DNA of 64,000 nt from Salinigranum rubrum (GTDB taxonomy: Archaea; Halobacteriota; Halobacteria; Halobacteriales; Haloferacaceae). The notes below the pieces were generated by a model that saw only the letters and a program-made list of their open reading frames with translations, was not told the DNA's origin and searched no databases. Position numbers and translations under genes: made by a program. The stretch spans positions 2,604,001 through 2,668,000 of the forward strand of contig NZ_CP026309.1 in NCBI RefSeq assembly GCF_002906575.1, written 5' to 3'. Of this stretch, positions 6,599 through 23,185 are shown piece by piece (the stretch's first letter is position 1; each line of letters begins with the position of its first letter).

Positions 6599-7195
6599 TC
6601 AGCCCGAGCCGTCGGTCGACAGTTCGATGCGGTCGTGGATGGTCCCCTCTCTCGTGCGGAGATGTCTCGGCTCGCGCCCGTTCTTCACCGCGAGCACCTC
6701 CGAGACGATGGAGAGGGCGATTTGATACGGCGAGCCGCCCCCCAGGTCGAGGCCGACCGGGGTGTACAGGCGGGCGAGTTGGGCGTCGGTGAACGTCGTT
6801 CCCTCGTCTTCGAAGTCGTCGAGCATCTCCTCGAAGCGCTCGTGGGGGCCCATCAGGCCGACGTACGGGACGGGAGTATCGAGGAGCGCTTCGATTGCGA
6901 GTCGGTCGTCGACGAAGTTGTGCGTCGCCACGACCACGTAGGTGTTCGCGTCGAAGTCGAACTCGTCGGTCATCCGCGCGGGCGAGGTCGAGACCACCTC
7001 GCTGGCGGCGGGGAACCGGTCGGCCTTCGCGGCGGCGCCGCGGAAGCCGACGACGGAGACGCGGAAGTCCGCCTGTGCGCCGAGTTCGGCGATGGGGCCG
7101 ACGTCGTGGCCGGTGCCGACCACGACCAGCTTCGAGGGCGCGGTGAGGCCGTCGACGAACACCGTCACTGACTCCCCGTCGAGTTCGACGGTCAC
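6599..7195 (-). CDS. XdhC-family protein, C-terminal Rossmann part (split from 7192-7779)
   Basis: 198 residues matching the C-terminal XdhC Rossmann domain: KLVVVGTGHDVGPIAELGAQ near residue 23, VVVATHNFVDDRLAIEALL, and the family end TPVGLDLGGGSPYQIALSIVSEVLAVKNG. XdhC/CoxI/CoxF proteins bind and mature molybdopterin cofactors before insertion into enzymes such as CO dehydrogenase. It would start at a GTG (7195) that overlaps the stop of the N-terminal part by four bases. The frame continues open upstream (GKADAVTVELDG). Adding one base near 7209-7212 fuses both parts into one normal-length XdhC, so this is probably one gene with a frameshift. Confidence 0.8.
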   Translation of the reverse strand: MTVELDGESVTVFVDGLTAPSKLVVVGTGHDVGPIAELGAQADFRVSVVGFRGAAAKADRFPAASEVVSTSPARMTDEFDFDANTYVVVATHNFVDDRLAIEALLDTPVPYVGLMGPHERFEEMLDDFEDEGTTFTDAQLARLYTPVGLDLGGGSPYQIALSIVSEVLAVKNGREPRHLRTREGTIHDRIELSTDGSG

Positions 7196-7779
7196 GGCGT
7201 CGGCTTTCCCCGAGCGGTGAGTTCCGCGGCGACCCCGCGCACTCGCTCGGCGAGGTCCGCGTCGAACCCCTCGCCGAGGTCGAACGTCTCCCCACGCGGG
7301 TCGTAGTACGCTCGGGCACCCGCGTGGTCCCCGTCGGTGACGGTCAACACGCCGACGTCGTACCCCTCCGCGAACGCGTCGACGGCAGGGCGGTACGTCT
7401 CGTCGAGGGGTTCGAGCAGGATGTCGATTCGGCCGTTGCAGCCGACACCGAGCCCCCAGACGTCGTCGTCATCGGCCTCGGGCATGAGGTCGTAGTGCTC
7501 GACGCGCGGTTCGCCGGCTTCGAGCACGTCGCTCGCGAGTCCCTGCACCTCGTCTTCGAGACAGCCCGCGGTGATGTGCCCGACGCCTACGCCGTCCTCC
7601 GGAATGACCATCTTCGCGCCGGGGCGACGGTACGCGCTGCCCTCGACGCGGATGACCGTCGCGAGGACGCCGCGGCGGTCGCTCTCTAACAGTCGGCGTG
7701 CCTGTGTCAGTACCTCCGTCTCGGGGACGCTCCAGTTGGCGTCCCCGGCCGTGTCGTCCGTGTCGTGTGTGTCGGTCAT
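7192..7779 (-). CDS. XdhC/CoxI-family protein, N-terminal part (split gene)
   Basis: 195 residues carrying the XdhC_CoxI N-terminal domain: GVLATVIRVEGSAYRRPGAK near residue 38 and HITAGCLEDEVQGLASDVLE with the conserved Cys. It stops at 7192, where the partner frame begins. It lies at the end of the CO-dehydrogenase maturation operon, overlapping the DUF364-like gene by four bases (7776-7779). Known XdhC/CoxF proteins help insert sulfur, and in CO dehydrogenase copper, at the molybdenum site. Whether it works as two chains or is interrupted depends on the suspected frameshift. Confidence 0.82.
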   Translation of the reverse strand: MTDTHDTDDTAGDANWSVPETEVLTQARRLLESDRRGVLATVIRVEGSAYRRPGAKMVIPEDGVGVGHITAGCLEDEVQGLASDVLEAGEPRVEHYDLMPEADDDDVWGLGVGCNGRIDILLEPLDETYRPAVDAFAEGYDVGVLTVTDGDHAGARAYYDPRGETFDLGEGFDADLAERVRGVAAELTARGKPTP

Positions 7780-8618
7780 GGTTCTGTATTGGGTCGCTCC
7801 GCTGGTAACTGTAGCCCCGGGAGGGGCGAGTCGGCCGCGCAGTACACCTTCTGTAGCCCCGCGTCGTGGAGGTCGGTCCCGCAGTCGCCCGCGGCGACGT
7901 GGTCGCGGACGCTCGCGACGTCGCGGACCCGCGCGCCGGCGACGAGGTCGACGCCGCGGTCGAACAGCGGACCCGGAAGCATCGAGGCGGTCGCCCCGAC
8001 GACGACCACCAGCGGAACCGCCGCCCGTCCGGCCGCCGCGAGGTACGCGTCGATGCCGCCGTAGACGAGCGTCGATCCGGTGACGAAACAGACGTCCGCG
8101 CCGTCGAACGCCGCGTCGACCTCGCCGGGGGAGAAGAGCGCCGTCGGGACGCGCTCGGGGAGCGACTCGGGGTCGATTCCCCCGACGTCGCGCTCGACGA
8201 CCCGGACGGAGACGTCGCCGAACTTCTTGAACGCGGGGCGGAACAGGCCCACGGTGGCGACCGTCTCCACCGAGGTGTCGAGCGCCGCCATCGGGTCACC
8301 GGCCAACCACTCGACTTCCCCGACCGACAGCGCGTTGAGCGTCGCGAGGCCGACCGCCCGGGCGACGCTGCCGGGAGCGGCGTCGGTCGCCTCTTGGGCC
8401 AGTTGCTCGACGGTCGCGTCCCTCGCGTCCTCGTCCGCGACGGGTGCAGAGGGTCGATGGGCGACGCCCGCCAGCGTCCCCTCGTCGGGGTGGCGACACG
8501 ACACCAAGAGTGCGCGGTCGCCGACCGTGATTCGGGGGTCGGTCGCCGCTGCGGCCCGTGCCGACAGCGCCTCGCGCACCTCCCGGACGACGGCGTCGGC
8601 GTCGACGGGTGGGGACAT
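7776..8618 (-). CDS. DUF364-like (putative heavy-metal chelation domain) protein in the cox operon
   Basis: A 280-aa protein. The C-terminal half is a Rossmann-like domain with VCFVTGSTLVYGGIDAYL, VPLVVVVGATASMLPGPLF and a final Cys-containing segment (DCGTDLHDAGLQKVYCAAD). This resembles the DUF364/DUF4213 heavy-metal chelation family often found near molybdenum or tungsten enzyme genes. The N-terminal part matches the DUF4213-like region (LSVGEVEWLAGDPM). Packed between coxE (1 base apart) and xdhC (4-base overlap), it is presumably a maturation factor for CO dehydrogenase. The family call is from pattern; the function is inferred from context. Confidence 0.7.
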   Translation of the reverse strand: MSPPVDADAVVREVREALSARAAAATDPRITVGDRALLVSCRHPDEGTLAGVAHRPSAPVADEDARDATVEQLAQEATDAAPGSVARAVGLATLNALSVGEVEWLAGDPMAALDTSVETVATVGLFRPAFKKFGDVSVRVVERDVGGIDPESLPERVPTALFSPGEVDAAFDGADVCFVTGSTLVYGGIDAYLAAAGRAAVPLVVVVGATASMLPGPLFDRGVDLVAGARVRDVASVRDHVAAGDCGTDLHDAGLQKVYCAADSPLPGLQLPAERPNTEP

Positions 8619-8619
8619 C

Positions 8620-9942
8620 TCAGGTCACCCCCGTCTCTCCCGCTCGCTCTCGGAAGTCGTGTTCGTAGCCGATGGGACCGTGCGGGCCGTGTCTTCGGAT
8701 CTGGCGCGCCACCTCCGAGAGGTCCTCGGGCCCCGCGAGCGCGAAGAGGCCGTCGACGTACGGGAGCGACGCGGCCATCCCCCGGCAGGTCGGTTCGTAC
8801 TTCGCCGAGGCGGCGAGCGGGTTCAGCCAGAGGACGGCCCGCGACCGTCCCGAGAGCCACGTCATCCCGCGTTCGAGGTCCGAAACGTCGCCGACGTCCA
8901 GTCCGTCGCTCACGACGAGCGTGACCGTCCGGCGGTCGACGGCGTCCGGCCAGCGGGTGCGAAGTTCCGAGATGGCGTGACCGATCTTCGTCCCGCCGCC
9001 CCACGCCACCTGGGCACGTTCGAGCGCGAGCACGGGGTTCCCGCGCGACGCCGTGAACACGTCGGTCACCTCGCGGATGTCCGTGTCGAAGAAGAAGACG
9101 CGGACGCCGCGGCCGTCCTCGACGAGCGTGTCGAGAAACTGCAGCAGGAAGCCGCGGTCGACCGTGTCGAGGACGGACTGGCTCACGTCGACGAGGACGG
9201 ACGTGCGGAACGCGGTGGGTTTTCGCTCACGGGTCGGCAGCGAGACGACTGCGCCGCCGGTGCTGACGCTCGACCGGAGGGCGCGCCGCGCGTCGACCTG
9301 CCGGCCACCGCCCGCGGTCCACCGACGGCCCGAGAGCGTCGAGAGCGCCCGCTCGAACTGGCGGACCGCGTCCCGGTCGATGGCGCGGCTCCGACCCTCC
9401 TCGTCGACCTCGCTCCCCGCGCCGCCGGCGCTGTACGTCGAGGCGCGACTCCGCTCGCCCGCGGCCTCGTCGAGGTCACCCGCGTCCGTGTCGTGGTCGA
9501 CGAGTCGCCGCTCTCGAACCGCGTCGTCTGAGTCGTCGCCGCCGTGCCCGTCCCCGGCCGGGTCGCCGCCGCTCGCGGCGACCGACTCCTCGGCCGCGTC
9601 GTCGTCGGCTCCGAAGAACGCGCCGCTGCCCGATCGGTCGCCGACGTCGTCGCTCGTGGCAGTGGCTTCTAATCCGGTGCGGAGGCGGTACCAGAACTCG
9701 GGGAAGTGCGCCTCGAACGTCTCCGTGTCGCGGGCGTCGGTGACGAGTGTGGCGTGCGTCGCCGCGTAGACGCTCTCGCGGTCGCGCAGCCCCACGGTAC
9801 ACAGCGCCTCCGTCGCCGAGAGCGCGGCGTTCGCCGGCACCGACAGGCCGTTCCGACGGAGGGTCCGGGCGAACGACACCACCTCCCCGAGGACGTGATC
9901 GCGGGCGGCGACGAAGTCGGGTGTCTCGTCGAAGGAGTCCAT
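8620..9942 (-). CDS. coxE: CoxE-like VWA-domain maturation protein
   Basis: A 440-aa protein with a helical N-terminal region, an acidic low-complexity middle (about 110-190, rich in Asp, Gly, Ala) and a C-terminal von Willebrand A domain. The MIDAS motif is DVSQS from Asp252, and VVSDGLDVGD supplies later MIDAS acids. CoxE with the AAA+ ATPase CoxD is required in bacteria to build the Mo-S-Cu site of CO dehydrogenase. It sits directly downstream of the AAA+ gene (12-base gap) in the same operon. The long acidic insert is a haloarchaeal feature. No truncation is seen. Confidence 0.85.
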   Translation of the reverse strand: MDSFDETPDFVAARDHVLGEVVSFARTLRRNGLSVPANAALSATEALCTVGLRDRESVYAATHATLVTDARDTETFEAHFPEFWYRLRTGLEATATSDDVGDRSGSGAFFGADDDAAEESVAASGGDPAGDGHGGDDSDDAVRERRLVDHDTDAGDLDEAAGERSRASTYSAGGAGSEVDEEGRSRAIDRDAVRQFERALSTLSGRRWTAGGGRQVDARRALRSSVSTGGAVVSLPTRERKPTAFRTSVLVDVSQSVLDTVDRGFLLQFLDTLVEDGRGVRVFFFDTDIREVTDVFTASRGNPVLALERAQVAWGGGTKIGHAISELRTRWPDAVDRRTVTLVVSDGLDVGDVSDLERGMTWLSGRSRAVLWLNPLAASAKYEPTCRGMAASLPYVDGLFALAGPEDLSEVARQIRRHGPHGPIGYEHDFRERAGETGVT

Positions 9943-9954
9943 ACGCGCTCAGGT

Positions 9955-10932
9955 TCAGGAGTCGCCCGTGCCGTCGCTCGTCGCCTGTTCGACCTGGCCA
10001 TCCGCGCTTCGCTCGCTTTGCTCGCCGTGTTCGCTCGCCTCGCGCGCCTCACGCGCCGCCCGTTCGAGGCGTTCCAGCAGCGTCGAGTCCACCCGCTGGA
10101 CGTCTTCGACCTCCTTCAACAGGGTGCCGATGGTGCGCTCTATCTCCTCGGCGTCGATGTCGGAGTCGTCGTCGGGCGGGCGGAGTTCGGCCACGGCCCG
10201 CGCCCAGTCGAGCGTCTCGGCGACGCCCGGTCGCTTGAGGAACGCGTTCTCGCGGAGTTCCGCGACGATGGCACACACCTCGGCGGCGACCGTCGCGTCG
10301 AGTTGGGGCACCTTCCGCCGGACGATTTCCCGCTCCGTCTCGTAGGAGGGCGCCTCGACGTGCAGGTACAGACACCGCCGCTTGAGCGCGTCCGACAGCC
10401 CTCTCGTCCGGTTCGAGGTGATGATGACGATGGGGGGCGTCTCCGCCGCGACGGTCCCGAACTCCGGGATGGTGACCTGAAAGTCCGAGAGCACTTCGAG
10501 GAGGAACGCCTCGAACTCCTCGTCGGCGCGGTCGACCTCGTCGATGAGCAGGACGGGCGGGGTGTCGCCCTCGTGGGTGAGCGCGCGCAGGAGCGGTCGC
10601 TCGAAGAGGTACTCCTCGGAGAAGACGCCGTCCTCGACGGTGTCGCCCGACTGCACGGCGAGAAGCTGTTTGGTGTAGTTCCACTCGTAGAGGGTGTTCT
10701 CCGCGGCGAGCCCCTCGTAACACTGCAGCCGAATGAGTTCCGTCTCGAAGCTCTCGGCCAGCACCTTCCCGAGTTCGGTCTTTCCCGACCCGGGTTCGCC
10801 CTCGATGAGCAGCGGCTTACCCAACCGAAGCGCGAGGTACACCGTGGTGACGAGCGTATCGTCGGCGACGTAGTCGGCTCCCTCGAACCGCTCGCGGAGT
10901 TCCTCCTCGGAGACGGAGTCGACCACGGTCAC
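9955..10932 (-). CDS. coxD: MoxR/CoxD-type AAA+ ATPase
   Basis: A 325-aa AAA+ protein with Walker A GEPGSGKTE (residues 45-53), Walker B LLIDEVDRAD (128-137), sensor 1 IITSNRTRGLSDALKRRCLY and an arginine-finger region. The C-terminus is a charged tail rich in Glu, Ser and Gln. MoxR ATPases paired with VWA proteins act as metal-centre chaperones; CoxD is needed for sulfuration of the CO dehydrogenase molybdenum centre. The start overlaps the stop of the XdhC-YHS gene by four bases, so translation is probably coupled. Confidence 0.9.
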   Translation of the reverse strand: MTVVDSVSEEELRERFEGADYVADDTLVTTVYLALRLGKPLLIEGEPGSGKTELGKVLAESFETELIRLQCYEGLAAENTLYEWNYTKQLLAVQSGDTVEDGVFSEEYLFERPLLRALTHEGDTPPVLLIDEVDRADEEFEAFLLEVLSDFQVTIPEFGTVAAETPPIVIITSNRTRGLSDALKRRCLYLHVEAPSYETEREIVRRKVPQLDATVAAEVCAIVAELRENAFLKRPGVAETLDWARAVAELRPPDDDSDIDAEEIERTIGTLLKEVEDVQRVDSTLLERLERAAREAREASEHGEQSERSADGQVEQATSDGTGDS

Positions 10933-12035
10933 GACTCGACACGCTCCAGGAACCGCGGGGGGTCGTCGACGAACGTCTCCTGACAGCCGACGCCGCAGAA
11001 GTGGTAGGTCGTCCCCTCGTGGGTAGCGGTCACCGCCGCCTCGCCGACGACGACGTCCATCCCGCAGACCGGGTCGGTGACGACCTCCGGTTCCGATTCT
11101 TCCGTCTCCATCTCGCTCCCGCCCTCGTCCTCGACCGGCTTGTCAGTGTCGGACACGGACTCGGCGAACACACCCCCCGTCTCGTGGGTACGCCGCACCG
11201 CGACGAGTTCCGCGAGCACGCTCACGCCGACCTCTTCGGGGCTCTTCGCTCCGATGTCGAGGCCGGCGGGCGAGGTGACCGCCTCCCGAACGTCGTCGGG
11301 CGAGCGGCCGGTTCGGTCGGCGACGCGCTCGCAGAGTTCGTCCGCGCGGCGTCGGCTGGAGACGAGGCCGATGTACGGGACCCCCGCGTCGAGCGCCGCG
11401 GCGACGGTGACGTCGTCGGTCGCGCCCATCGACGCGGCGACGACCCACGTGGCACCCCGGAGTTCAGCCGCGAGCGCGTCGACGTCGTCGGTCGCGGTCT
11501 TCACCTCGTCGGCTCCCTGCACCTCGCTCCCCCGCGGAACGACGGCGGTCACCTCGAACGAGAGTTCGCTCGCGAGGCGGACCACGGCGCGCCCGATGGG
11601 CGAGTCGCCGACGACGACGAGGCGCGCCGCCGTCGTCACCGGTTCGATGAACAGTTCCAGGGTGCCCTGGCTGTGACACGTCATCGGAAACGCCTCCAGG
11701 CCGGGGCGAGCCACCGAATCGGGGTCGGGCGCGATGCCGACGAGTTTCGGCGTCCCGTCTCGGAGCGCCGCCTGCGCCTCGCGGATGGCGACCGACTGAG
11801 CGCAGGCGACACCGCCGATCCAGCCGAGTAACTCGCCGTCGGGCGTGATGATGGCTCGGTCGCCCACGTGCGCCGACACGGGCGCCTCCCGGCGGACGAC
11901 GGTCACCCGTGCGAACGGGCGACCCTCTTTCGTGAACTCTCGGGCGACTCGGTCGACGGTCTCCGGGGAGGCGGCGGCGTCTCGCGAACGTTCTCCCTCG
12001 TTCGTCTGGGTCTCGGCGTCGGTATCGTCTGTCAT
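10929..12035 (-). CDS. XdhC/CoxI-family protein fused to a C-terminal YHS metal-binding domain
   Basis: A 368-aa protein in three parts. It has an XdhC N-terminal domain (REAPVSAHVGDRAIITPDGE, GWIGGVACAQSVAIREAQ), an XdhC Rossmann domain (RLVVVGDSPIGRAVVRLASE, TSPAGLDIGAKSPEEVGVSV), and after an acidic linker a YHS domain of about 45 aa (DPVCGMDVVVGEA, YHFCGVGCQETF) with four Cys in CxxM/CxxxC-like arrangement. ATG 12035 is chosen because upstream residues are Arg-rich and unlike the family. It lies between coxL and coxD. XdhC relatives handle the Mo cofactor; YHS domains bind metal, so a role in copper or Mo insertion is plausible but not shown. Confidence 0.85.
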   Translation of the reverse strand: MTDDTDAETQTNEGERSRDAAASPETVDRVAREFTKEGRPFARVTVVRREAPVSAHVGDRAIITPDGELLGWIGGVACAQSVAIREAQAALRDGTPKLVGIAPDPDSVARPGLEAFPMTCHSQGTLELFIEPVTTAARLVVVGDSPIGRAVVRLASELSFEVTAVVPRGSEVQGADEVKTATDDVDALAAELRGATWVVAASMGATDDVTVAAALDAGVPYIGLVSSRRRADELCERVADRTGRSPDDVREAVTSPAGLDIGAKSPEEVGVSVLAELVAVRRTHETGGVFAESVSDTDKPVEDEGGSEMETEESEPEVVTDPVCGMDVVVGEAAVTATHEGTTYHFCGVGCQETFVDDPPRFLERVES

Positions 12036-12269
12036 CTGAGCGGTGGTGTCTGGGAGTCGTGTCGTGAACCGGTGAGCCGGTAACGCGGTGAAACGAGCGG
12101 CGAGCGGTCGCGTCCCCCGCCGACGGCGCGTCAGCACCGTCAGCGCGGGTACGATGCGGTTCGCGGGCCGCGTGCGTGGTGTCGTGGTCGGTGTGATCGT
12201 GTGTGGCGAACGGCAGGTGTCGACGGGACGGGGGTCGAAACCCCCGGCGTGGTCCCGTCGGCGACGGGT

Positions 12270-14753
12270 TCAGTCGTCGGCGGGCGTCTCGCCGGCGTCG
12301 AACTCGAAGCGTTCGGCCGGGTCGAGCGTCAGCCCTGCCTCGTTCAGGACGGACCAGACGCGGTCCGGGGTCATGGGCATGTCGATGTGGCGCACGCCGG
12401 CGTGGGCCATCGCGTCGACGACGGCGTTGACGATGGCCGGCGGCGACCCCACCGTGGGGGACTCGCCGACGCCCTTCGCGCCGATGGGGTGGTGCGGCGA
12501 CGGCGTCACCGTGTAGTCGGTGTCCATGTGGGGAATCTCCATCGCCGTCGGCAGGAGGTAGTTCATGAAGTCTCCTGCCGTCACGTTGCCGTTGTCGTCG
12601 AACGTGACCTCTTCGAGCATCGCGGTGGCGATGCCCTGCGCGAGGCCGCCGTGGACCTGTCCCTCGATGACCATCGGGTTGATCCGGTTCCCGCAGTCGT
12701 CGAGCGCGTAGAACTTCCGGATGTCCACCTCGCCCGTCTCGCGGTCGACCTCGACGACGCAGACGTACGCCCCGAACGGGAACGTCATGTTCGGCGGGTC
12801 GTAGTAGTCCACTGCCTCTAATCCGGGCTCCTCGTTCGCCGGCGAGTTGGTGTAGGAGGCAAACGCGACCTCCTTCATCGTCACCCCGCGGTCGGGTGCG
12901 CCCTTGACCTGGAACGCGCCCGAGGAGCGGTCCCAGACGATGTCCTCTTCTGCGACCTCAAGTTCGTTGGCGGCGATGCTCTTGGCCTTCTCGCGGACCT
13001 TCCGGGCGGCGACCGCAGTCGCGGCACCGCCGACCGGCGTCGACCGGGAGGCGTACGTTCCTAACCCGTAGGGGTCGGTGTCGGTGTCGCCGTGTTCGAC
13101 CGTGATGTCCTCGACGTCGAGGCCCAGTTCTTCGGCGACGATCTGGGCGAACGTCGTCTCGTGGCCCTGACCCTGCGTCTGGACGCCGATTCGGACGGTG
13201 GCGTTCCCCGTCGGGTGGACGCGAATCTCGGCGGAGTCGAACATCTCGACGCCGGCGATGTCGCACTGCTTGCCGGGGCCCGCGCCGACGATTTCGGTGA
13301 ACGTCGAGAAGCCGATTCCCAGCAGTTTGTCGTCATCGGCGTCGAGACGGCGCTGTTGCTCCTCGCGGAGGCCGTCGTAGTCGACGGCGTCGAGCGCCTT
13401 GTCGAGCGCGCGCTCGTAGTCGCCGGAGTCGTAGGTCCATCCCGTCGCCGACTCGTACGGGAACGCCTCCTTCGGGATGAAGTTCTTCCGCCGAATCTCG
13501 GCGGGGTCCATGTCCAGTTCCTGCGACAGGACTTTGACCATGCGCTCGATGAGGTAGACCGCTTCTGTCACCCTGAACGAACACCGGTAGGCGATGCCGC
13601 CCGGGGCGGTGTTGGTGTAGGCCGCGTCGAGCTTACAGTACGCCGCCGGGACGTCGTACGACCCGGTGAATATCTTGAAGAAGCCCGCCGGGAACTTCGA
13701 CGGCTGGGCCGCGGCGTTGTACGCGCCGTGGTCGGCGAGCACGTCCACGTCGATGCCCTGGATGATTCCGTCCTTCGTGGCGGCGACCCGGCCGGTCATC
13801 TCGTAGTCGCGGGCGAAGTGCGTCGTCTGAATGTTCTCCGAGCGCTCCTCGACCCACTTCACGGGCTGGCCGATGACGTACGACGCCGCGGCGGCGATGA
13901 CGTACCCCGGATAGATGGGCACCTTGTTCCCGAAGCCGCCGCCGACGTCGGGGCTGACGATGCGCACCTTGTGTTCGGGGATGCCCGACACCATCGAGAA
14001 CAGGGTTCGGTGCGCGTGGGGCGCCTGCGAGGTGAGGTGGACCGTCATCTTCTCGTTGGCGGTGTCCCAGTCGGCCACACACCCACAGGTCTCGATGGGC
14101 GCGGGGTGGATGCGCTGGTAGTACATGTCCTGTTCGACGGTGACGTCGGCGTCCTCGAACGCCTTCTCGGTCGCCTCCTTGTCGCCGGTCTCCCAGGTGA
14201 AGATGTGGTTCGAGTCGTTGTCCTCGATGTCGTCTCGGACCAGCGGCGCGTCGGGTTCGAGCGCCTTCCGCGCGTCGACCACCGCATCCAGCGTCTCGTA
14301 CTTGACCTCGACCTTGTCGGCGCCGTCCTTCGCGATGTAGCGGTCGGTGGCGATGACGGCGGCGACCTCCTGGGACTGGAACTTCACCTTGTCCTGGACC
14401 AGGACGTCCTGGGTGTCGTCCATCAGCGTCGGCATCGTCGCCAGGTCGTACTCGGCGAGGTCCTCCGCGGTGAGGACGGCGACGACGCCGTCGACGTTGA
14501 GCGCCCGCTCCTTGTTGATGGACTTCACGTACGCGTGGGCGTGAGGACTCCGGACGACGTGGCAGTGGAGCATCCCGTCCTTCTTGATGTCGTCGACGTA
14601 GTTGCCGCGACCCGTGATGAAGCGGCGGTCCTCCTTGCGCTTGACCTCTTGGCCCATCCCGCCGCGACCGTGTCCGTGGTGGGCCTCGGGGTCGGGACCA
14701 CCGTCCTCGTCGTGTCGGTACTTCGCGTCGGGTTTCTCGGTCTCGCTGCTCAT
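12270..14753 (-). CDS. coxL: Aerobic carbon-monoxide dehydrogenase, large (molybdenum) subunit, form I
   Basis: An 827-aa catalytic subunit of the Mo-Cu CO dehydrogenase that oxidises CO to CO2 and feeds electrons to the respiratory chain. The form I signature AYRCSFR is at 388-394, with Cys391 the copper-ligand position. The catalytic Glu764 is in [10 protein letters not shown], and the cofactor-binding loop [14 protein letters not shown] is present. Length matches bacterial CoxL (about 810). The start overlaps coxS by four bases (ATGA). The N-terminal 35 residues are polar and His-rich. Form II homologs lack AYXCSFR, so this is a true CoxL candidate rather than a generic xanthine-oxidase-family protein. 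Confidence 0.95.
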
Positions 14754-15364
14754 CGGTCTTCCTCCCCGAAGTCGACGTCACAGCCGCAGCCCGACCCACA
14801 TTCGAACCCGCCGTCGGCGGCGGCCTCCTGCTCTTGGGGGTTCTCGACCGGCGACTCGGGGGGTTCGCGGTCGTTGTACACGTCCGCGGCGTACTGGATG
14901 GACTTGACGATGTTCTGGTAGCCGGTGCAGCGACAGAGGTTGCCGCTGATGTTCTCTCTGATCTCCGCCTCGGTCGGGTCCGAGTTCTTGTCGAGGAGCG
15001 CCTTGCCCGCCATGATCATCCCGGGCGTGCAGTAGCCGCACTGCAGGCCGTGCATGTGGCGGAAGCCCTCCTGGATGGGGTGGAGGTCGTCCGAGCGGCC
15101 CATACCCGCCTCGGGGAGGTCCGCCATCCCCTCGACGGTGGTCACGTCGCTCTCGTCGGCCTGAACGGCGAACATGAGACACGACTTGACCGCCTCGCCG
15201 TCCTTGTAGACGGTGCAGGCGCCGCAGTTGCCCGTGTCACAGCCGATGTGCGTGCCGGTGAGGTCGAGGTCCTCGCGGATGGCGTGGACCAGCAGTCGAC
15301 GGGGTTCGACGCTCAGTTCCCGCTCGGTGCCGTTGACGGTGATGGTGATGTCTTTCTGGCTCAT
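14750..15364 (-). CDS. coxS: Carbon-monoxide dehydrogenase small (2Fe-2S) subunit with Cys-rich tail
   Basis: A 204-aa iron-sulfur subunit. The plant-type [2Fe-2S] ligands lie in [20 protein letters not shown] and the second cluster in [13 protein letters not shown] plus [15 protein letters not shown]. Bacterial CoxS ends about 160 aa. Here an extra 35-40 residues follow, ending [20 protein letters not shown] with four Cys in eight residues. The stop overlaps the coxL start and coxM ends one base before its ATG, so the order is M-S-L as in bacteria. The tail might bind a metal; that is inference. Confidence 0.95.
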
Positions 15365-16225
15365 TTATCTGGCACGCTCCACGGCCGAAGCGAGCGCTCG
15401 CTGGGTCAGGACGCGCGTCATGTTCTCCTTGTAGTCGGCGCTGCCGTGTTCGTCCGACTCCGGATGGGCGGTCTCGGCCGCGGCCTCGCCCGCCCGCTTG
15501 AACAACTCGCCCGAGGGCTCCTCGTCGACGAGTCTCTCCTCGGCCTCCGGGACGGCGATGTTCGTGATGTCGACGGCCGTGAGGGCGACGCCGGCGTCGA
15601 CGATGACGCCGTCTTCGAGCACGACGCGGGCGGCGACCCCGACCATCGCGTAGTCGCCGACCTTGCGCTTCAGCTTGTGGTAGGCGCTCCCCTCGCCTTC
15701 GGCGGGGACGGGGACGCGAAGCTCCGTGATGAGCTCCGTCTCGTCCAGCATGTTGTCGTACGGGAGGAGGAAGAACTCCTCGGCGGGGATGGTCCGCTCG
15801 CCGTCGGGGCCGTTGGCGACGACTTCGCCGTCGTGCGCCAGGAGGACGGTCCCCCAGTCGCCCTTCGGGTCGGACTGTGCGACGCTGCCGACGACCGTTC
15901 CCCTGTTTCGGATCTGCGGGTCCGCGACCAGCGGCGCGGCGTCGAAGAAGCTCCCGTACTTCTCGGCGATGAGGTCGGACTCCTCGACGTCGACGTGCCG
16001 GCAGAGCGCGCCGATGCGGAGGCTCCCCTCGGCTTCTTCGAGGAAGTCGAGTTCCTCGACGCGGTTCAGGTCGATGACGGTCTCGGGGCGCGCGAGCCGA
16101 AAGCGCATCATCGGGATGAGGCTCTGCCCCCCCGCGAGGATGGCCGGTTCGTCGAGGCTGTCGAGGAGGCTCACGGCCTCGTCGACCGTCGTCGGTTCGT
16201 GGTGTTCGAATTGGGCTGCTTTCAT
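15365..16225 (-). CDS. coxM: Carbon-monoxide dehydrogenase medium (FAD) subunit
   Basis: A 286-aa FAD-binding subunit that passes electrons from the iron-sulfur clusters to the quinone pool. FAD motifs AGGQSLIPMMRFRLARP (near residue 31) and RNRGTVVGSVAQSDPKGDW (near 107) are present, and the C-terminal CO_deh_flav_C region follows (KLKRKVGDYAMVGVAARV). Length matches the family. It lies immediately upstream of coxS and 12 bases downstream of coxG in the same transcript. Confidence 0.95.
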   Translation of the reverse strand: MKAAQFEHHEPTTVDEAVSLLDSLDEPAILAGGQSLIPMMRFRLARPETVIDLNRVEELDFLEEAEGSLRIGALCRHVDVEESDLIAEKYGSFFDAAPLVADPQIRNRGTVVGSVAQSDPKGDWGTVLLAHDGEVVANGPDGERTIPAEEFFLLPYDNMLDETELITELRVPVPAEGEGSAYHKLKRKVGDYAMVGVAARVVLEDGVIVDAGVALTAVDITNIAVPEAEERLVDEEPSGELFKRAGEAAAETAHPESDEHGSADYKENMTRVLTQRALASAVERAR

Positions 16226-16237
16226 GATACGGCTGGG

Positions 16238-16828
16238 TCAGAGGAGTCCACTGAGTCGGTCGCGAATGCCGCTCGACTTCTCGGACTCCTCGAACCCGGT
16301 CATCTGCTTCTGGATGTTCTTGAAGAAGTTCGAGACTATCTTGTCCGCCACGGGGTTCATCACGCGTCCGCCCAGCTGTGCGATGCGGCCGGAGACGTCC
16401 GCCTGTGTCCCCCACTTGACGGTCGACCCCGTCTCGGTCTCCTCGATGTCCATCCACGACTCCATCTCGAAGCTGCTGTTCGAGGCGTCGCCGCCCCCGG
16501 TCGCAACCATGTGCGGGAACTCCCGTTCCTTGATCGTGACGCGCGTCTCGAACCGCGGCTTGACGCTCCCGACGCCGACCTGCATCAGCGCGGCGTAGAC
16601 GCCGCCCTCGACGAACGCCCGCTCCGCGACCACTTCGGGGTCCGCGTCCGGCAGCGTCTCGATGTCCTCCTCGGGTTCGTATTCGTCGAAATTGAAGTCT
16701 TCTCCGTCGATCCTCGTGATGTAGCGACACCCCTTGAGGGCGTCGCGTACGGCGATTGGATCCGAGAGAACGATCCACGCGTCCTCTGGCGATACTCCGT
16801 CTAATTCGAATTCACCACTGAACTCCAT
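16238..16828 (-). CDS. coxG: CoxG-like SRPBCC protein
   Basis: A 196-aa protein starting MEFSGEFELDGVSPEDAWIV, the CoxG (SRPBCC/START-like fold) signature. WGTQADVSGRIAQLGGRVM and ADKIVSNFFKNIQKQM lie toward the C-terminus. CoxG is found with CO dehydrogenase genes; work on mycobacterial CoxG implicates it in delivering lipid quinone electron acceptors to the enzyme. The ATG at 16828 is set by the family start. It is probably the first gene of the leftward cox operon; an AbrB-type gene lies upstream on the same strand. Confidence 0.9.
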   Translation of the reverse strand: MEFSGEFELDGVSPEDAWIVLSDPIAVRDALKGCRYITRIDGEDFNFDEYEPEEDIETLPDADPEVVAERAFVEGGVYAALMQVGVGSVKPRFETRVTIKEREFPHMVATGGGDASNSSFEMESWMDIEETETGSTVKWGTQADVSGRIAQLGGRVMNPVADKIVSNFFKNIQKQMTGFEESEKSSGIRDRLSGLL

Positions 16829-17008
16829 TTTTGTACTAGCCCCTATGCGAGTGCTAAGACTCGTGCTTGTGACTCTCATCCACTCGCATAAACGTTACTG
16901 AAGGACCGGACGATTCGTATCAGCGGAAAACCAGATGAGGGAGAGCGCGGGCGGTGAACGCGGGGAACGCGGAAGGCCGGGCGGGTCGTCGCCGACTCCC
17001 GTCGGGGG

Positions 17009-17776: not shown

Positions 17777-19035
17777 GTGACACAGGACACCCCCGACGCC
17801 GACGAGTCGCCGCCGTACGACGCGATGCTGTCCATCCCCGAGGCGACGCGGCGCGTCCACGCGCTCCGGCAGTCCGTCCTCGAAACCCGCGCGACGGAGG
17901 CCGTCCCGCTCTCCGACATCGGCGGCCGCACGCTCGCGGCCGACGTCGTCGCCGAGGCCGACCAGCCGCCGCACTCGCACGCGACGATGGACGGCTTCGC
18001 GTTCGACGCGACGGACGACTACCCGCTCCGCCTCCGCGACGTCTCGGTGTTCCCCGAGGACGACCCCCCGGAACTCGGGGATGGAGAGGCGGTCCGCATC
18101 GCCACGGGCGCACCGCTCCCGGCGGGCGCGAACGCGGTCCTCAAGCGCGAGGAGGCGACGGTCACGGGAGAGGGCGAGGAGCACCTCGACGGGCCGACCC
18201 TCGCGCCGTGGACGTACGTCTACCGCCGCGGGAGCAACGTCTCGGCGGGCGAGACGCTCTTCACCGCGGGGGAGCGCCTCTCGCCGAAGGACGCCATCTT
18301 GCTCCGTGACCTCGGGCACGAGTCCGTCGAGGTCCACGAGCGGTTCTCGGTGGCGTTGCTCGCCACGGGGACGGAGATACACGAGGGGCGACACACCGAC
18401 CTCGACTCGCCGATGCTCGCCGCCCTCGTCGACGCGTGGGGACACGAGGCGACCTACGAGGGGTCGGTCCCCGACGACTACGACACGGTCCGCGAGCGCG
18501 TGCGGGAACTCGCCGCCGAGTACGACGTCGTCGTCACCACCGGGGGACGAGCGTCGGCCGGAAGGACTACGCCGTCCGGACGCTCGCGGACCTCGGCGAG
18601 GTGCTCTTTCACCGCGTCCGCATCCGCCCGGGCAAACCGATCGCCGTCGCCGACCTCCCCGAGTTCGATGCCGTCGCCTTCGCCATCCCCGGCAAACCCG
18701 TCGGCGCGCACGCCGTCACGACGCTCGTCGCGCGGCCGTTCTTCGTCGGCGACACCGAACGGCCGACGGTGACGGCCACGCTCACGAGAGGGTTCGACAT
18801 CGGCGCCGAGGGGTTCGACTACGTCGTCCCGGTGACGCTGTCGGGGGATGGGAGAGAGGCGCTCCCGCTCGGGCACGTCGACTCCCCGCTGACCGTCTAC
18901 GACGAGACGTTCGACCCGAGCGTGCTGTCCTCCAGCACGCGCGCGACCCGCGCGGACGGGTTCGTCGTCACCGACACGGGCCTGAGAGCCGGAACCGCGG
19001 TCGACGTCGTGCCGTACGACGTCGTCGAGCGATGA
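17777..19035 (+). pseudogene. moeA: Molybdopterin molybdenumtransferase MoeA, single-base frameshift
   Basis: Encodes MoeA, which inserts molybdate into adenylated molybdopterin. The first frame gives family residues HATMDGFAFDATDDYPLR and LPAGANAVLKREEATV up to YDVVVTTGG near residue 256. Adding one base to the G5 run at 18542-18546 restores TTGGTSVGRKDYAV and the rest of MoeA (VRIRPGKPIAVADLP, FAIPGKPVGAHAV), ending DVVPYDVVER. Repaired length is about 420 aa, normal for the family. The stop overlaps the next gene's ATG by a TGA/ATG overlap, so moeA and mocA are one operon. It may be a sequence error rather than decay, since moeA is needed for any Mo enzyme unless a paralog exists elsewhere. 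Confidence 0.9.
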
Positions 19036-19778
19036 CCGGGCGGGACGACGAGCGTCGGGGAGACGCTGACGCGCGAGGCACCGACGGCGACCCGAGAGGG
19101 GAGGGACTGCCGGTCGTCCACCCGCCGACGGGCGCGGACGCGACGAAGACGACTGAAGCGACGGAGCCAACGGGAGACGACCCCGCCCCGCGCGTGGCCG
19201 GCGTCCTCCTCGCCGCGGGGACGAGTTCGCGGTTCGGCGCGGCGAACAAGCTACTCGCTTCCCTCGACGGGGACCCGCTCGTCCGTCACGCCGCTCGGAC
19301 GCTCGTCGACGCCGGCCTCGACCCACTCGTTGCCGTCGTCGGCCACGACGGGGACCGGGTCGCCGCCGCGCTCGACGGCCTCGGCTTCACAGTCGTCGTG
19401 AACCCCGACTACGAGGAGGGACAGGCGACGTCGGTTCGACGCGGGGTCGAGGCGCTCACAGACGACCGCGAAGGCGAGCGGGTCGACGCCGTCGTCTTCG
19501 CGCTCGGCGACATGCCCGCGGTCGCCCCCGAGAGCGTGCGGGCGCTCGTCGACGTCTTTCGAACGGGGGAGTGGACGGCGCTCGCGGCCGCCTTCGAGGG
19601 AAAGCGGGGGAATCCGGTCCTCTTCGACCGCCGCCACGTCGACGCGCTGACCGACGTGTCGGGGGACAGGGGCGGCCGTCGAATCCTCCGGGAGGGCGAG
19701 CGCTCGGCGCTCGTCGAAACCGGGGACGAAGGCGTCCGACACGACGTGGACACGCCGGCGGACCTCGACCGACGCTAG
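19032..19778 (+). CDS. mocA: Molybdenum cofactor cytidylyltransferase (MocA/MobA-like)
   Basis: A 248-aa protein. A polar, Thr/Asp-rich N-terminal extension (about 1-55) precedes a nucleotidyltransferase fold: GVLLAAGTSSRFGAANKLLA (N-terminal signature and Lys), VVGHDGDRVAAAL, FALGDMPAVAPESVRAL with the DMP metal-binding motif, and GKRGNPVLFDRRH. MocA makes molybdopterin cytosine dinucleotide, the cofactor form used by CO dehydrogenase and other xanthine-oxidase-family enzymes. Placement beside coxMSL and moeA fits this role. The N-terminal extension is unusual; an internal start could shorten it. Confidence 0.88.
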   Translation: MTGRDDERRGDADARGTDGDPRGEGLPVVHPPTGADATKTTEATEPTGDDPAPRVAGVLLAAGTSSRFGAANKLLASLDGDPLVRHAARTLVDAGLDPLVAVVGHDGDRVAAALDGLGFTVVVNPDYEEGQATSVRRGVEALTDDREGERVDAVVFALGDMPAVAPESVRALVDVFRTGEWTALAAAFEGKRGNPVLFDRRHVDALTDVSGDRGGRRILREGERSALVETGDEGVRHDVDTPADLDRR

Positions 19779-20579: not shown

Positions 20580-23185
20580 ATGAGCCAGCGTCGCAGTCAG
20601 ATCGATATCCGGGGGATGAGCTGTGCGAACTGTTCGCAGAGCATCGCCGACGCCGTCGGCTCCCTCGACGGAGTGACGGAGGTGAACGTCAACTACGCGA
20701 CCGACGAGGGCACCGTCGCGTACGACCCCGAGGGGGTGTCGCTCGGCCGGATCTTCGAGGCCATCGAGGACGCCGGCTACCGCCCGGTCACGGCGTCGGT
20801 GACCGTCGGCATCACGGACATGTCGTGTGCGAACTGCGCCGAGACCGTCCAGGAGGCGCTCGAACGCCTTCCGGGAGTGGTTCGCGCCGACGTCAACTAC
20901 GCGACCGACGAGGCGCAGGTCACGTACAACTCTGGGGAAGTGAGCCCCGGCGACGTCTACGACGCCATCGAGGACGCGGGGTACACGCCGGTCCGCGAGG
21001 ACGGGACGAGCGGGGACGGCGAGTCGGGGACGAGCGCGAGAGACGCGGCGCGGGCGTCCGAACTCCGTCGACAGCGCCGGCTGACGCTGTTCGGCGCGGC
21101 GCTCTCTCTCCCCTTGCTCTTCTTCCTCGTCGAGAAGCTCCTCCTGGGTGGAGGCGTCCTCCCCGACCGCGTCTTCGGAGTCGCGTTCGGATGGGTCGAG
21201 TTCCTCCTCGCCACGCCCGTGCAGTTGGTGCTCGGCTGGCCGTTTTACAAGAACTCGTACAAGGCGCTCGTGAAGAACGGCCGCGCCAACATGGACGTCC
21301 TCATCGCGCTGGGGTCGACGACGGCGTACGTCTACTCGGTGGCCGTCCTGAGCGGACTGATCGCCGGCGGGATCTACTTCGACACCGCGGCGCTCATCCT
21401 CGTGTTCATCACGCTCGGGAACTACCTCGAAGCCCGCTCGAAGAGCCAGGCCGGCGAGGCACTTCGGAAGCTCCTGGAGATGGAGGCCGAGACGGCCACC
21501 CTCGTCGACGAGGACGGAAACGAGGAGGAGGTCCCGCTCGAAGACGTCCAGGTCGGCGACCGCATGAAGGTGCGGCCCGGCGAACAGGTCCCGACGGACG
21601 GCGTCGTCGTGGAGGGCCAGTCGGCGGTCGACGAGTCGATGGTCACCGGCGAGTCGGTCCCCGTCGAGAAGGGCGAGGGCGACGAGGTGGTCGGGTCGAC
21701 CATCAACGAGAACGGCGTCCTCGTCGTCGAGGCGACCAAGGTGGGCAAGGACACGGCGCTCCAGCAGATCGTCCAGACGGTGAAGGAGGCCCAGTCGCGC
21801 CAGCCCGACATCCAGAACCTCGCCGACCGCATCTCGGCGTACTTCGTTCCCGCGGTCATCGCGAACGCCCTCCTCTGGGCCGTCGTCTGGTTCCTCTTCC
21901 CCGGAACGCTCGCGGGGGTCGTCGAATGGCTCCCGCTGTGGGGGCTCGTCGCCGGCGGTCCGGCCGTCGCCGGGGGCACGGTGTCGGTGTTCGAGTTCAG
22001 CGTCGTCGTCTTCGCGAGCGCCGTCCTCATCGCCTGCCCCTGTGCGCTCGGGTTGGCAACGCCGGCGGCGACGATGGTCGGCACGACTATCGGCGCACAG
22101 CACGGCGTCCTGTTCAAGGGTGGCGACGTCCTCGAACGCGCGAAGGACGTCGACACGGTCGTCTTCGACAAGACGGGGACGCTCACCAGAGGCGAGATGG
22201 AACTGACCGACGTCGTGGCGTTCGAGGACGGCACGCCGGTCGCCGGCGGTGAGGCGGCGGCGGACGGAGGACAGCTGACGACCCCGAGCGGCGCACCGAG
22301 GGGGAGGTGCTCCGCCTCGCCGCCGCCGCCGAACGCGGAAGCGAACACCCGCTCGCGCGGGCCATCGTCGACGGGGCGCGAGACCGCGGTATCGACGTCC
22401 CCGAGCCCGAGAGCTTCGAGAACGTCCCCGGACACGGCGTCCGCGCCACCGTCGACGGGAGCGAGGTGCTCGTGGGCAACCGCAAACTCCTGCGCGACAA
22501 CGGCGTCGACCCGTCCCCGGCGGAGGGGACGATGGAACGGCTCGAACGCGAGGGCAAGACGGCGATGCTGGTCGCGGCCGACGGTGAGCTCCTGGGCGTC
22601 GTCGCCGACGCCGACACGGTCAAAGAGAGCGCGGCCGACGCGGTGCGCGCCTTGCAGGAACGCGGCGTCGACGTGATGATGATCACCGGCGACAACGAGC
22701 GCACCGCCCGTGCGGTCGCCGAGCAGGTCGGCATCGACCCCGCGAACGTCCGTGCGGAGGTCCTCCCCGAGGACAAGTCCGACGCGGTCGAGGCCGTCCA
22801 GTCGGAGGGTCGGAAGGTGATGATGGTCGGCGACGGCGTCAACGACGCCCCCGCGCTCGCCGTCGCGTACGTCGGGACCGCCATCGGTAGCGGGACCGAC
22901 GTCGCCATCGAGGCCGCCGACGTGACGCTGATGCGTGACGACCCGCTGGACGTGGTGAAGGCCGTTCGGATCTCGGAGGCGACGCTCGCGAAGATCAAAC
23001 AGAACCTCGTGTGGGCGCTGGGTTACAACACGGCGATGATCCCGCTCGCCTCCCTCGGACTGCTCCAGCCCGTGCTCGCCGCCGGGGCGATGGCGTTCTC
23101 CTCGGTGTCGGTGCTGGCGAACAGCCTGCTGTTCCGGCGGTACGCGCCCGAGGAGGACTACCGACTGCTGTACCGCTGGCGGTAG
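20580..23185 (+). pseudogene. copA: Copper-exporting P1B-ATPase CopA with two HMA domains, single-base frameshift
   Basis: Cu(I) efflux ATPase of the cell membrane. Two N-terminal heavy-metal domains have CxxC at residues 15-18 and 83-86 ([16 protein letters not shown]). The family transmembrane core follows with [14 protein letters not shown] (CPC ion site), phosphorylation motif [11 protein letters not shown], then after the break GDNERTARAV and [14 protein letters not shown]. The frame is lost between 22250 and 22310; the downstream frame resumes with [22 protein letters not shown], the usual N-domain with its HP motif. One added base restores a protein of about 868 aa. Both halves are otherwise perfectly conserved, so a sequence error is a real possibility. 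Confidence 0.92.

Follow-up and report, generated by a model that had tools for sequence, protein, structure and literature searches.

Two related questions are raised by this locus: how copper reaches the Mo-Cu site of form I CO dehydrogenase, and what a YHS domain fused to an XdhC protein contributes to it. The copper route has yet to be worked out; the present model is built on a single bacterium, and the CoxF of that bacterium has no YHS domain. In this organism, Oligotropha (Afipia) carboxidovorans, coxE and coxF mutants make CO dehydrogenase free of copper, and CoxF has been proposed as the copper donor through the putative site MCPSHGTM (PMC4240915). A putative metal-binding module that tracks form I and is absent beside form II would supply both a part and better organisms in which the route could be tested.

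The form I cox operon of Salinigranum rubrum

The haloarchaeal form I cox operon is located on the minus strand of the window (the whole stretch of 64,000 nucleotides that was analysed; G000:C1:2604001-2668000), in a genome of 4.97 Mb. The gene order is coxG-M-S-L, XdhC-YHS, coxD, coxE, DUF364 and a second XdhC gene formed by two ORFs; from XdhC-YHS to the second XdhC, adjoining genes overlap by 4 bp or are separated by gaps of 12 bp at most. The structural part comprises coxG (16238..16879; Pfam COXG, E 1e-16), coxM for the FAD-binding subunit (15365..16225; Pfam FAD_binding_5 and CO_deh_flav_C), coxS for the 2Fe-2S subunit (14750..15364; Pfam Fer2 and Fer2_2) and coxL for the Mo-Cu catalytic subunit (12270..14753). 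CoxL is of form I, with 1242 bits to TIGR02416 against a cut-off of 991 and the loop AYRCSFR. A MoeA gene and, as judged by its position and its likeness to Natronorubrum, a candidate nucleotidyltransferase gene are divergent to coxG within 17777-19778.

The maturation part starts with the XdhC-YHS gene (P0005; 10929..12035), followed by coxD (P0004; 9955..10932), which encodes a CoxD-type AAA+ ATPase (Pfam AAA_5), coxE (P0003; 8620..9942), which encodes a VWA protein (Pfam VWA_CoxE, E 3.5e-35), and the DUF364 gene (P0002; 7776..8618; E 7e-21, 74.7 bits against a Pfam cut-off of 23), a haloarchaeal addition to the operon. The second XdhC is CoxI-like and consists of an N-terminal half (P0001; 7192..7779; Pfam XdhC_CoxI, E 1e-22) and a Rossmann half in a separate overlapping ORF (6599..7195; Pfam XdhC_C, E 6e-32), all of these genes being on the minus strand. 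The frame changes in the 4-base overlap at 7192-7195, and the homologues from Salinigranum and Natronorubrum are one fused gene; the split may be due to a sequencing error, to decay or to a true fission. Only these two XdhC Rossmann genes are present in the genome, against eight hydroxylase-type large subunits. A preliminary description had named five genes, XdhC-YHS, coxD, coxE, DUF364 and the second XdhC, as a candidate module for copper delivery and sulfuration. All of them are found where it had placed them, although its range left the Rossmann half of the second XdhC outside.

The same description took a copper pump gene about 8 kb away as support for a copper route. In this assembly at least, the reading frame of this copA-type ATPase, which has two HMA domains (20580-23185), shifts near 22.25 kb. 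Nor does copA lie close to cox in relatives: the haloarchaeal cox loci that were examined showed no copA in flanks of up to 10 kb. The link between the pump and cox was consequently dropped.

Domains and putative metal site of the CoxF-YHS protein

P0005, which runs from an ATG at 12035 to a stop at 10929, contains XdhC_CoxI (E 5e-14), XdhC_C (E 1e-24) and a C-terminal YHS domain (E 1.3e-9; 38.3 bits against a Pfam cut-off of 30.3). The protein aligns to CoxF of form I cox clusters and continues past the Rossmann domain, through a linker, into the YHS domain; it is the best profile match among the XdhC proteins of the genome, and it groups with CoxF from cox clusters in a quick midpoint-rooted tree with long branches. 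Its gene is found in a form I coxL operon together with coxD and coxE. By its sequence, the gene at 10929-12035 is assigned to CoxF, which acts after translation in the maturation of form I Mo-Cu CO dehydrogenase and here ends in a YHS domain. In the AlphaFold2 model (mean pLDDT 87.9) the XdhC body and the YHS domain are confident and residues 288-310 are disordered. The body matches the fold of solved XdhC proteins, and the XdhC/CoxI chaperones 2we7, 2we8 and 3on5, which have XdhC_CoxI and XdhC_C domains, are the best matches in both sequence and fold.

The coxD, coxE and coxF genes beside form I coxL are the same as in O. carboxidovorans (PMC4240915, PMC3471820), although in the window coxF precedes coxD, unlike in that bacterium. 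The CoxF of O. carboxidovorans is also an XdhC family protein with a C-x-S-x-G loop, its cluster likewise has a second XdhC (CoxI) further down, and the motif PMTCHSQGT of P0005 is the counterpart of its putative copper site. However, it is 280 aa long, with little sequence beyond the Rossmann domain, whereas P0005 carries the YHS domain; neither YHS (18.8 kb examined) nor DUF364 was found in the O. carboxidovorans cluster. The copper idea of the preliminary description therefore falls on a protein that was already suspected, here with an added domain of metal-binding type. As to the YHS protein that the operon was said to add, the fusion with XdhC is real, but it is CoxF itself in a common bacterial form and no archaeal novelty.

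The residues D355, C358, C381 and C385 of P0005 (numbering from an upstream GTG at 12137) reproduce the Asp/Cys ligand pattern of YHS/TRASH domains. Their spacing, D-x2-C-x22-C-x3-C, is that of D178, C181, C204 and C208 in the C-terminal YHS domain of the Mycobacterium phlei adenylyl cyclase, a copper-activated, probable copper sensor (PMC4626032). In P0005 the domain is attached to the maturation factor of a metallo-enzyme instead of a cyclase, and the linker is longer. Similar sequence and the same Cys pattern are also found in the N-terminal YHS of CPC-type heavy-metal P-type ATPases; unlike in CoxF-YHS, that domain is part of a membrane pump without a link to a Mo enzyme. The three ligand Cys, which are among the best-conserved residues of the tail, occur in 125 of 135 CoxF-YHS rows. 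All ten exceptions belong to Deinococcota, where the first two ligand Cys have been lost; in these tails (L041, L042, L046, L069, L092, L013, L043, L049, L050 and L065) a C-x2-C pair is kept. In Burkholderiales the ligand Asp is usually replaced by Asn.

Distribution of the fusion beside form I and form II CoxL

When genome contigs were scanned with a query built from aligned fused proteins, 80 XdhC-YHS loci were obtained, from Halobacteria, Thermomicrobia, Bacillota, Deinococcota, Acidobacteriota and Burkholderiales. coxL was found in the examined flank at 77 of the 80, and at the other three the upstream side ends at a contig edge. Because the scan was seeded with fused proteins, this result shows linkage to coxL and not frequency. 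Of the 77 coxL-linked loci, 75 have a readable (A/S)YRCSFR loop; of the remaining two sequences, one is incomplete, and in the other the loop could not be located. In plasmid records, the fusion adjoins form I coxL in Natronorubrum, Thermomicrobium, Deinococcus, Paraburkholderia and Caballeronia. Paraburkholderia xenovorans LB400 carries two clusters of this kind. An origin restricted to archaea was rejected, given that the fusion is present in several bacterial groups. In Natronorubrum bangense there is a cox cluster on the chromosome and another on a plasmid, and both stretches (L018, L019) give the same matches.

Frequencies were obtained from genome samples. In these samples, which include the centre genomes G000, G242, G244 and G250, where the fusion is present by choice, form I coxL occurs in 24 of 242 Halobacteria genomes, with XdhC-YHS adjacent in 23 of the 24; in 28 of 171 genomes of the Chloroflexota group, with YHS on all 28 CoxF tails read; in 3 of 169 Bacillota, with YHS-CoxF in the three of them; and in 11 of 279 Pseudomonadota, with YHS in one, a centre genome chosen for it. 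One further YHS-CoxF from the Chloroflexota group (G796) starts at a contig edge. Among the matches listed, XdhC-YHS was not seen in the other 218 Halobacteria genomes; absence outside the loci read rests on such matches in Halobacteria and on matches to E 1e-12 in Bacillota and Chloroflexota. Fisher tests that ignore shared descent gave p ~3e-31 both for Halobacteria and for the Chloroflexota group. The YHS domain was not found on CoxF in the sampled alphaproteobacteria, O. carboxidovorans included, nor in the sole case from Actinobacteria, a Nonomuraea record (L016). One haloarchaeon (G020; L132, L146) has a CoxF without the YHS tail and an intact form I coxL; it is a natural loss of the domain and a useful case for comparison.

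In form II, CoxL has an RGAGR loop where form I has the copper-binding Cys. No YHS was found on XdhC proteins adjacent to form II CoxL at the loci read, and in two genomes with form I and form II in one cluster (G726 and G753) YHS is present on the form I side only. Genomes with CoxF-YHS also carry other XdhC proteins without the domain, and the tail was found in none of 85 XdhC loci taken as unlinked to form I coxL in four groups. Profile coverage alone detected 15 YHS-bearing CoxF proteins in Chloroflexota, against 28 by tail reading; it under-calls the domain, so absence by coverage was distrusted and the 85 control loci were also read directly. XdhC/CoxI proteins serving other hydroxylases are thus, unlike P0005, devoid of YHS at every locus read. 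The expectation that XdhC-YHS would track form I coxL and not xanthine dehydrogenase was borne out, and a role as a xanthine dehydrogenase factor was rejected on the YHS-free tails of the non-cox and form II controls. Because XdhC-YHS and DUF364 occur overwhelmingly with form I coxL, there is good support for a role in the maturation of form I, and XdhC-YHS can serve as a marker for operons that mature the form I enzyme.

What looked like a YHS close to a different hydroxylase in the genome of the window turned out to be an AsnC-type regulator whose C-terminus is a TRASH domain; the hydroxylase near it (L287:6671-15087) is CoxL-like and has the loop PYRGAGR. Besides, an identical free-standing YHS protein of 48 residues is present in two haloarchaeal genomes of different families (L210, L212), as if it may have been transferred recently.

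In a quick tree of 145 XdhC-region sequences, midpoint rooted and with long branches and related rows, the YHS label changes four times, fewer than in any of 500 shuffles. The fusion is thus seldom changed or old; an old fusion with few losses fits these data, and repeated gain may also have occurred. CoxF-YHS is a real variant within the known CoxDEF route that is undescribed in the literature searched: no paper naming XdhC with YHS, or CO dehydrogenase with YHS, was found in a full-text search that left most subscription journals outside.

Possible roles of the YHS domain and the DUF364 protein

The YHS domain is probably a copper-handling arm of CoxF, for which a role as carrier feeding copper to CoxL is proposed; the ligand pattern and the contrast between form I and form II point in this direction. 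In this mechanism, a flexible linker connects the small YHS domain to an XdhC body, which has a C-x-S-x-G loop of the CoxF type. The arm would capture copper and then present it to the CoxF body, which would insert it between the sulfur bound to Mo and the cysteine of the CoxL loop. Sulfuration would be supported by CoxD and the complex anchored by CoxE, following the proposal for O. carboxidovorans. The domain seems inessential to the chemistry in general, because O. carboxidovorans and the other sampled alphaproteobacteria manage without it. Further points that tell against this reading are the missing ligand Cys in the ten Deinococcota CoxF proteins, the case of G020, which retains coxL without the domain, and the YHS domains of toluene-4-hydroxylase and phenol hydroxylase.

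Alternatively, YHS could be a copper sensor that switches CoxF on, the inserted copper arriving by another route. The one characterised C-terminal YHS domain is such a copper-dependent switch, on the adenylyl cyclase (PMC4626032), and loss in alphaproteobacteria would fit a regulatory add-on. This explanation is nevertheless unlikely: the near-universal presence of the domain in CoxF of Chloroflexota, Bacillota and Halobacteria and its strict linkage to form I suggest a core role, and coxF mutants yield an enzyme without copper (PMC4240915). Slightly less probable still, the domain could have a docking or structural function, perhaps binding Zn or devoid of metal, and guide CoxF to CoxL or CoxE. 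The YHS domain of toluene-4-hydroxylase is metal-free in the crystal (PMC4626032), a phenol hydroxylase component also carries YHS, and the Deinococcota tails that lack two ligand Cys retain the fold signature; however, the conservation of the ligand Cys elsewhere and the absence of YHS from form II systems with XdhC argue against it. Finally, the Cys-rich tail might carry persulfide sulfur for the Mo site, not copper. This is conceivable on a protein of the XdhC family, whose members cooperate with cysteine desulfurases when the Mo cofactor is sulfurated (PMC2997495, PMC4240915), but it is very improbable: the sulfido ligand is also required by other Mo hydroxylases, and yet the tail is missing from all 85 non-cox XdhC loci and from the form II-linked XdhC proteins read.

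Starting from the copper-handling arm, a wider scheme can be put forward tentatively, the balance being somewhat against it as a whole: CoxF-YHS would be a copper metallochaperone for the Mo-S-Cu centre, its YHS fusion would be ancestral and would have travelled together with form I CO dehydrogenase among bacteria and into haloarchaea, the alphaproteobacterial system that has been studied would be derived by loss of the arm, and the haloarchaeal DUF364 protein would be an added chaperone, for a metal or a cofactor, at the same site.

The DUF364 gene also tracks form I coxL, as had been anticipated. The family is over the cut-off in 28 of 242 Halobacteria genomes, namely 23 of the 24 with form I coxL, where it lies at the cox locus, and 5 of the 218 others. 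By tblastn, no match was found at any bacterial cox locus of the 80 loci. P0002 is related to the DUF364 proteins 3npg (sequence match with E 6e-7, and also by fold) and 3l5o, both from a family of no known function; the predicted structure, with a mean pLDDT of 54, is usable for the family match alone. C246, H251 and K257 are kept in 25 of 25 cox-linked proteins, one Cys and one His being invariant, and the Cys of their motif C-G-T-x-L-H is absent from two free-standing haloarchaeal copies. The pointers to a copper protein are the Pfam description, which speaks of heavy-metal chelation, and gene order; as a guess, the protein may be a Rossmann-like metal or cofactor chaperone added in haloarchaea to the same step. 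In one genome (G160:C8; L145, L214) DUF364 comes directly after CoxF-YHS, with coxD and coxE not within the stretch read.

Four of the five other DUF364 genomes have the gene unlinked to cox. In the fifth, G213 (L139; G213:C1:1904000-1921000), coxD, coxE, DUF364 and XdhC are kept next to MoeA and a nucleotidyltransferase, but the interval from MoeA to coxD lacks coxG, M, S, L and F. The coxD of the window shares 72.5% identity with that of G213 and 93% with Salinigranum coxD. The G213 locus is a maturation module without its enzyme, from which CoxF has gone together with CoxL.
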